The position numbers and the translations under genes are program-made. The notes beneath the pieces were generated by a model that ran no database searches, had not been told where the DNA came from, and was given only the letters and a program-made list of their open reading frames with translations. A stretch of 34,926 bases of DNA from Selenomonadaceae bacterium. GTDB lineage: Bacteria; Bacillota; Negativicutes; Selenomonadales; Selenomonadaceae. This document shows positions 33,734-34,903 of this stretch, in pieces. Numbering within the stretch: the stretch's first letter is position 1; each line of letters opens with the position of its first letter. The stretch is taken from assembly GCA_017553205.1 (NCBI GenBank), contig JAFZMV010000163.1:1-34926 (forward strand). The letters are read 5' to 3'.

Positions 33734-34894
33734 TTATTGTAGCAAACTCAACACTCCTGAAGAATTCTGATTTGCTTGAGCCAGCATAGCCTGTGCTGAC
33801 TGTTGAATGACATTAAATTTTGTGTATTCAGTCATTTCTTTAGCCATGTCAGCGTCGCGGATTGTGGATTCGGAGGCAGTTGTATTTTCAATTTGGGTAA
33901 CAACATTATTTTCGGTATACTCCAATGAGGCTGCTTGAGCACCGACGTAAACCGCCGCACTAAGTAAATAATTTAATGCCGAATCAATTGCACCGGAGCC
34001 ATTTGTACCGTCGCCAAGCAATGCTTTTCGGTCTTCTTTAGATACAAGATTATATTGCAAAATATCCTGCTTATTTCTTCCGTTATAAGCGTAATAATTT
34101 TTGAAAATAGAATCCAAATCAGTCGAAGGAATATGAACCGTTATATGTTGGTCTGCTTTATCAGTGTGCTGAATAACCAAACGCTTTTCTTTGTCGACAT
34201 TTTCTGAAATACGATGAACCAGCATATCTTCATAATAATCTTCCGTAACCGGAATACTGGTATCTTTGTAACCGTCCATAATAATTGCCCCGTAAAGCGT
34301 ACCGTCTTTGGCTTTGCGAACATCACTGTAATTTTCGTAATTATTGTCGGGGTAACTCTCATACAATGTCAATACTCCGTTTCTTGTATCTCCCGAAATA
34401 AACATCTGGTGATTGATTGTTTTTAATATTGGCTCGGCTTGATCATAAATTGCCTTAATCAATCCCGCATAATCGCCATTTTTTACTTTAGATATATCAA
34501 TGGGAATGTCTTTTATATCTTCATCAGTGTCAATTTCAGGTTTTTCTACGCTGATCGGTGGCGGAAGATTATTGTCCGTAAAATAAAAGTTAAACCACTG
34601 CGGATCGGGATTATTTGTTGACGGACAAGTGGCACAATATGCCATAAATCCCTTGCCCATTAAATCAGAAATATTTGAGGAAATAGCTTTTAAATCTATA
34701 TCATAGTGATAATAAGGATTTTTGCGAACAGATGTACTAAAATATCCTTTATCATTATTTGCTTCACCTAATCTGTAAGCGTTGATTCTAGGGCGTGTTG
34801 GTAAAGTGCCGAAAATAAAAACATAAGCAATTTTTTTCTGATAAAATGTGTTTGTTAAAAATTCATCGGAAAGGAAATTGCTTATGTCGAACAC
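33734..34894 (-). CDS. Flagellin C-terminal-domain protein lacking a flagellin N-terminus
   Basis: A frame of up to 386 residues. The last 70 residues are a typical flagellin D0/D1 C-terminus (VGAQAASLEYTENNVVTQIE, NTTASESTIRDADMAKEMTE, SAQAMLAQANQNSSGVLSLL). The preceding 300 residues, including PRINAYRLGEANNDKGYF and a cysteine-containing AYCATCPS, look like a flagellin variable region. The conserved flagellin N-terminal D0/D1 coiled coil, needed for filament assembly, is absent. The frame opens after a TAA with a GTG at 34894 and no ribosome binding site, inside an unusual inverted-repeat cluster. It may be a 5'-truncated flagellin gene, a gene separated from its head by DNA rearrangement, or a divergent protein. 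The true start is uncertain. Confidence 0.6.
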   Translation of the reverse strand: MFDISNFLSDEFLTNTFYQKKIAYVFIFGTLPTRPRINAYRLGEANNDKGYFSTSVRKNPYYHYDIDLKAISSNISDLMGKGFMAYCATCPSTNNPDPQWFNFYFTDNNLPPPISVEKPEIDTDEDIKDIPIDISKVKNGDYAGLIKAIYDQAEPILKTINHQMFISGDTRNGVLTLYESYPDNNYENYSDVRKAKDGTLYGAIIMDGYKDTSIPVTEDYYEDMLVHRISENVDKEKRLVIQHTDKADQHITVHIPSTDLDSIFKNYYAYNGRNKQDILQYNLVSKEDRKALLGDGTNGSGAIDSALNYLLSAAVYVGAQAASLEYTENNVVTQIENTTASESTIRDADMAKEMTEYTKFNVIQQSAQAMLAQANQNSSGVLSLLQ

Positions 34895-34903
34895 ATTTTA
34901 TCA
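34822..34903. repeat. Permuted inverted repeats (A-B-A'-B' order)
   Basis: CATAAGCAATTT (34822-34833) is exactly complementary to AAATTGCTTATG (34875-34886), and TGATAAAATGTGTT (34839-34852) to AACACATTTTATCA (34890-34903). One more pair (A34821-T887 offset, i.e. 34821 with 34887) extends the first. The pairs are interleaved, so both can form only as a pseudoknot, or they reflect a past inversion. The second arm of the first pair contains the ATG of the plus-strand frame at 34884. Confidence 0.75.

Follow-up and report, generated by a model that had tools for sequence, protein, structure and literature searches.

The right-hand end of the window, by which we mean the whole 34,926-nucleotide stretch of Selenomonadaceae DNA analysed here, can safely be assigned to the left end of an IS5-family insertion sequence (IS) in a Selenomonadaceae-type genome. 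Two pairs of complementary arms located there, A with A′ and B with B′, probably belong to a control cassette of the transposase gene with an IS10-like layout, in which a weak promoter in B, an antisense RNA from B′ and a fold of read-through transcripts that buries the start codon would be combined. As parts of this reading, antisense control of the transposase is likely and protection from outside transcription is plausible.

Results

Left end of an IS5-family element in a flagellin-like gene

The window's final ~138 bases are repeated in the genome, where 15 of 19 matches (the window included) exhibited 99-100% identity over 118-147 bases. All 15 left ends were located at most 14 bases from a contig end; it was at this repeated IS that the assembly broke, which is why the window stops here. 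A second sequence, 100% identical at 13 other contig ends, represents the right ends of the element; it has only 21 bp in common with the left end (34787-34807) and, judged by eye, finishes like a transposase gene. The 21-nt common end constitutes the terminal inverted repeats at both ends of the IS, which were read on separate contigs, and on the left this repeat begins at about 34791, beside a TA. A TA, a candidate target-site duplication, adjoined all 15 left and all 13 right ends.

The window carries only the first 14 codons of the transposase gene. The full transposase of a relative from genome G022 matched the NF033580 model of IS5 family transposases (244 bits against a cut-off of 110, E 1.8e-72) as well as PF13340 and PF01609, which identifies the protein of this relative as a DDE transposase of the IS5 family. 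The gene interrupted by the IS is flagellin-like, and its fragment in the window is the C-terminal part only, with the Flagellin_C domain. A search for the other flagellin half beside the 13 right ends, in which one motif was tried, gave nothing convincing. Further to the left, a run of about 10 C, a kind of tract that can differ in length, was observed at ~33620-33632; it lies between the flagellin fragment and an ORF at 31810-33093. The coordinates of all features are listed in Table 1.

Table 1. Features of the locus at the right-hand end of the window.
Feature	Coordinates	Strand	Remarks
3′ part of flagellin-like gene, interrupted by the IS	33734-34787	-	PF00700 Flagellin_C, E 6.4e-19
Left end of multi-copy IS5-family IS	34788-34926	+	15 near-identical places; contig stops inside
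Putative antisense RNA, ~79 nt	34809-34887	-	Begins with A′, hairpin A′/A, ends in U-tract; match of model R1
Arm A	34821-34833	.	3′ arm of putative minus-strand antisense hairpin; complementarity and covariation
Arm B	34839-34854	+	Core of putative weak transposase promoter, TG-A-TAAAAT, hexamer 34842-34847
Likely transposase ribosome-binding site AAAGGA	34870-34875	+	Proposed from reading the sequence
Arm A′	34875-34887	.	Overlies start codon; 5′ arm of putative minus-strand antisense hairpin
Transposase start, MSNTFYQGRYSVSN...	34884-34926	+	ATG at 34884; cut by contig end
Arm B′	34888-34903	-	Core of putative antisense promoter, TG-A-TAAAAT, hexamer 34895-34900
-35 box TTGAAA of putative antisense promoter	34918-34923	-	17-bp spacer

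Geometry of the complementary arms

The original prediction had described two perfect complementary pairs interleaved in the order A, B, A′, B′, and this arrangement was found in the window. A and A′ are 13 nt long and 100% complementary, and so are the 14-nt arms B and B′ (34839-34852 and 34890-34903). The intervening gaps had been given as about 5, 22 and 3 bases, of which the first two agree and the last is 2 from the coordinates; likewise, the claimed span of 34822-34903 ends correctly but begins one base late, the true start of A being 34821. The ATG (34884-34886) falls within a pairing arm, A′, as had been stated. When one G-U pair is allowed, the B arms lengthen to 16 nt (Table 1), so that B′ directly abuts A′. 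Arm B′ doubles as transposase codons 2-7.

In the entire window of 34,926 bases, no inverted repeats other than pairs A and B were perfect over 13 nt or more with a gap not exceeding 60. One perfect inverted repeat of that size occurred in 3 of 20 dinucleotide shuffles of the whole window. Shuffling of the local 139 bp yielded any such repeat in 2 of 2000 cases, bearing out the earlier view that a chance origin is very unlikely.

Conservation and compensatory change

For the collection of related copies, an iterated nhmmer search, in which the inverted arms led to mixing of the two strands, was replaced by a terminal-repeat pattern. As a result, 65 rows were obtained, from which 35 left ends were taken. 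Right ends accounted for 12 of the 30 rows left out and unrelated matches for 7; the remaining 11 were left ends. Among these left ends, L009, L056, L079, L085, L088 and L106 were near-copies or truncated, with an altered start in L085 and L106, L065 and L078 had lost much of A′, and L017, L050 and L112 were deleted or fused and had no A′/B′. All pairing counts retained L094 and L096, in which the arms or the start are damaged.

Helix A was scored as 8 pairs and helix B as 16, giving 24 in total. In the 35 left ends, 91.8% of 838 cells were paired and both-side changes were found in 10 of the 24 pairs, as compared with 31.6-45.9% paired when the partner was slid by 1-3 columns in the same rows. 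When L170 and two copies of another genus (L114 and L160), all three more distant, were added, 91.4% of cells were paired, with double changes in 11 of 24 pairs. Because omission of L065 and L078 had flattered the first count, a recount was made with 8 of the 11 left ends added. Over these 46 rows (44 distinct), 90.7% of cells were paired against 31.7-45.5% in the slid control, and double changes were again present in 11 of 24 pairs, leaving the picture unchanged. The pairing put forward in the original prediction is matched by compensatory changes among relatives in both the 35- and the 46-row counts, and both paired motifs persist across the 35 left ends chosen.

Events were placed on a tree built from downstream coding DNA, which covered 25 of the 35 rows (8 had no downstream sequence, the window copy included, and L094 and L096 were omitted). 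Double changes numbered 6 in A and 11 in B. In helix A, 12 events led into plus-strand A.C, equivalent to minus-strand G.U, 2 into plus-strand G.U and 2 into other combinations. The ratio of 12 to 2 corresponds to a two-sided binomial value of 0.013, on a small count from one tree and one parsimony reading, and this strand bias of the wobbles favours an antisense (minus-strand) RNA. Cells of helix A were paired at 97.4% when read as minus RNA versus 92.1% as plus RNA. The mismatches of helix B were 11 G.U, 10 A.C and 10 others; given this lack of strand bias, B-B′ is perhaps no RNA helix.

Promoter-like cores in B and B′

The top promoter-like site in 34600-34926 was located on the minus strand, in and beside B′, and reads TTGAAA-17-TG-A-TAAAAT from 34923 to 34895. 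It matches the consensus at 10 of 12 positions, with a TG ahead of the second hexamer, and was the best of 5 promoter-like sites in this interval, where 1.5 were expected. Arm B carries the same extended -10 as B′ on the plus strand. Across the 35 elements, the plus and minus cores are inverted repeats of one another, both of the form TGNTANAATNNNTTTG, with identity at 12-16 of 16 positions in 34 elements and at 8 in L094. The two hexamers were alike as TAAAAT/TAAAAT in 23 of the 35 elements, TACAAT/TACAAT in 4 and TAGAAT/TAGAAT in 1. They were unlike in the other 7, namely TAAAAT/TAGAAT in 3 and TAAAAT/TAAATT, TAAAAG/TAAAAT, TAGAAT/TAAAAT and TAAAAT with a lost box in one each. By reading, the -10 pair is TATAAT/TATAAT in L114 and L160 and TAAGAT/TAAGAT in L170, and five different -10 boxes are each present in both core copies of at least one element. 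Base 7 past the hexamer, the expected RNA start, is an A on the minus strand in 33 of 35 elements and on the plus strand in 32 of 35. Of the 33 elements whose sequence extends to the minus -35 box, 15 matched at 4 or more of its 6 positions and 18 at 3 or fewer; for the plus promoter the higher level was reached in none of the 35 elements, and none was above 3 of 6. The poor -35 boxes and the 7 unlike hexamer pairs count against two functional promoters.

Judged from these motifs, B and B′ are most likely the cores of two facing promoters. The co-change of B and B′ extends outside the -10 box without an RNA strand preference, which is odd and not fully explained; their likeness could be kept by matched promoter strength, by B-B′ pairing in read-through RNA or by template-switch correction. 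A bolder reading, in which the sense and antisense promoters of the IS would form a self-mirrored cassette of inverted, co-evolving copies of one 16-bp core, is possible but leans towards the doubtful side. If it is true, drift in transposase promoter strength would be matched by the repressor RNA, and a second core copy would be written into the first transposase codons.

Folding of the putative antisense RNA and of the leader

The putative antisense RNA of the window copy has a predicted fold of -19.5 kcal/mol (z -6.33), and the mean folding z for the 35 elements was -3.95. On the minus strand, at least 6 T were present in the first 8 nt past the stem in 33 of 35 elements; a consensus terminator scan that considered only loops of 3-8 found no site at the locus, a point against the model. 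As cut in relatives, the RNA measures 59-79 nt, the window copy being 79 nt. Its overlap with the expected mRNA leader amounts to 19-33 nt (median 28) and spans the ribosome site and the start codon.

RNA reading through from the left folded with a mean z of -3.97 in the 35 elements and a z of -3.69 in the window, where the mean predicted unpaired probability was 0.00 for the start codon and 0.14 for the ribosome site. The fold prediction accordingly supports the earlier proposal that a rightward transcript would bury the ATG at 34884. A leader starting after B did not fold better than shuffled sequence: the mean z was +0.32 (35 elements), and the window copy gave -8.8 kcal/mol (z -0.50). In the native leader of the window copy, the unpaired probability was 0.49 for the ribosome site and 0.02 for the start codon, via weak downstream pairing; this leader is predicted to be not fully open, a point against the model for that copy. 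Among nested folds of the plus strand, hairpin A alone was best, at -22.8 kcal/mol versus -18.0 kcal/mol for B alone, and the upper stem of A and B compete for 34839-34842. The pseudoknot of the original prediction would need A-A′ and B-B′ to form together, and the folding programs handle nested structures only.

Proposed control of the transposase and alternative explanations

In the proposed mechanism, B would act as a weak extended -10 promoter and the transposase mRNA would start just past B, at about 34855; because of this start, the native mRNA would contain neither arm A nor arm B. B′ would be the facing, stronger promoter, from which an antisense RNA would begin with A′, fold into the A′/A hairpin and stop in the U-tract. 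This RNA would pair with the mRNA over its initial 19-33 nt, ribosome site and ATG included, and block translation, and the block would grow with the copy number of the IS. Transcripts from outside would carry A and B and would form hairpin A, possibly with help from B-B′, so that no transposase would be made.

The arms might instead serve protection from outside transcription only, with A-A′ and B-B′ sequestering the start codon in read-through mRNA, perhaps as a pseudoknot or as two alternative hairpins, and with no antisense RNA at all. The folding of read-through RNA far above shuffles (mean z -3.97) with a buried AUG would suit this view, as would the covariation of B and the IS5 copy L156 of a Kurthia plasmid, where inspection by eye showed a hairpin that pairs with the SD and holds a -10-like box in the loop, and no B′. 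Nevertheless, it is unlikely, since the wobbles of helix A stand 12 to 2 for the minus strand, the A-rich stretch beside A (the minus-strand U-tract) is conserved, and the best promoter match lies on the minus strand at a fitting distance. The strand bias of helix A also weighs against a site acting at the DNA level, in which a dimeric protein, either the transposase or a host repressor, would bind the inverted repeats as half-sites and so shut the promoter. DNA symmetry would predict the observed co-change of B and B′ without strand bias in the mismatches, and the limitation of the right end to 21 common terminal bp is in keeping with such a site; however, on each strand the conserved bases of B are those of an extended -10 (TGNTANAAT), and the spacing of RNA start and U-tract fits promoters, which makes half-sites improbable. 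With only 21 bp in common at the right end, A and B do not constitute another pair of end sites, and transposase binding sites at both ends were rejected as a candidate.

Quasi-palindromes can be perfected by template-switch correction during replication, and the perfection of the arms could in principle stem from this process rather than from selection on pairing. It would account for the co-change of B and B′ outside the -10 box as well as inside it, without RNA strand bias, but leaves the promoter spacing, the U-tract and the strand bias of A unexplained; we consider it very improbable as the explanation, and it could operate alongside the proposed antisense mechanism. Least credible of all is the inversion scar or recombination site that the original prediction had raised in view of inverted arms flanking a start codon. 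The order A-B-A′-B′ is the same in all 15 left ends of the genome and in the aligned relatives, no alternative orientation of the segment, as expected of an invertible switch, was found among them, and the locus itself belongs to an IS end present in many copies, so that this claim fell away almost entirely.

Relatives and distribution

Among 50 named transposase relatives, 49 were titled Selenomonadaceae or Selenomonadales, many of them from ruminants, and the remaining one was from Candidatus Accumulibacter, at 17% identity. The transposase family was matched in 5 of 200 genomes of the class, the source genome included. Model R1, built from rows that include the source genome's own copies, matched 37 of 189 genomes of the family, again including the source genome, and all were within the genus of the window. 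No match of R1 was found in genus g23, which is home to L114 and L160, indicating that the reach of R1 is short.

Several individual copies deserve description. L114 (1389-1508) and L160, both from g23, have the same cassette with TATAAT in both promoter cores, and one left end of L160 seemingly sits inside another copy. L017 (1501-1833, corresponding to G000:C140:7697-8029) is an internally deleted copy of ~333 bp that keeps the left end with A- and B-like parts, the transposase tail and the right end, A′ and B′ being gone. In L053 (1376-1460), a lone A/B-like remnant, CCGGTAAAATGTGTTTACCG, lies immediately 5′ of a lipoprotein-like ORF and is perhaps an IS promoter passed to a host gene. L050 has a left end similar to this remnant ahead of another ORF.

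Comparison with known systems

Antisense control of transposases has its textbook case in IS10, a member of the IS4 family, and IS10 and IS50 are shielded from outside transcription by mRNA folding. According to PMC5006887, the RNA-OUT of IS10 is 69 nt long, its first 35 nt pair with RNA-IN in the translation initiation region, and a Dam site overlaps the -10 region of pIN. The present locus is like IS10 in its putative short antisense RNA against the transposase gene, with overlapping 5′ parts and the ribosome site covered; the 69 nt and 35 complementary nt of IS10 compare with a probable 79 nt and 33 nt in the window copy. Unlike IS10, the transposase here belongs to the IS5 family, the two promoter cores are inverted, co-changing copies, and no GATC occurs within 34788-34926. 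In its proposed form, the cassette has the RNA-IN/RNA-OUT layout of IS10 in another IS family, with IS10 as the closest functional analogue.

The Rfam scan returned 12 matches, none near its own cut-off; among Rfam families, RNA-OUT (RF00240) gave a chance-level minus-strand match (16.9 bits against a cut-off of 41, E 1.8), which does not place the RNA in that family. In the accessible literature, outside of which most subscription papers lie, no title dealt with antisense or read-through control in IS5, and one match merely cites an IS10 paper. The two 'impinging' passages in PMC4265352 are unrelated to protection of IS10/IS50 from outside transcription.

Other cis-encoded antisense RNAs against transposase leaders, as the one proposed here would be, are those of ISPpu9 (Asr9), IS30 and IS200; the latter two are cited as cases of inhibition in PMC8450116. 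For ISPpu9, the same paper describes a 244-nt leader whose 5′-UTR conceals the ribosome site, an antisense promoter spanning the tnp ribosome site and first codons, an antisense RNA of ~180 nt that stimulates translation, and a second sRNA. On this account, the antisense RNA of ISPpu9 stimulates translation, whereas a block is proposed here.

The plasmid-borne IS5/IS869 elements of the NF033580 group have a transposase of the same family, with 42.0-45.9% identity among the 25 matches listed of 3070 records. Alignments to these 25 begin at query residue 5-10, mostly 9, so the B′-bearing N-terminal stretch is without a counterpart in them. A B/B′ pair was not found in the two plasmid copies judged for it, L156 and L158 (L157, an IS869, was left out). 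At ~540-600 in L156, from a Kurthia plasmid, a leader hairpin TCCACCTC/GAGGTGGA was seen by eye to pair with the ribosome site, with the -10-like TGATACAAT in its loop, and this leader is perhaps a simpler form of the design. If true, the occurrence of IS10 geometry in a Selenomonadaceae IS of another family would suggest more than one origin, and an overlapping promoter could shape the N-terminal codons of a transposase. Furthermore, the many natural variants of the RNA pair with compensatory changes would form a ready set for the study of antisense specificity between co-resident IS copies.
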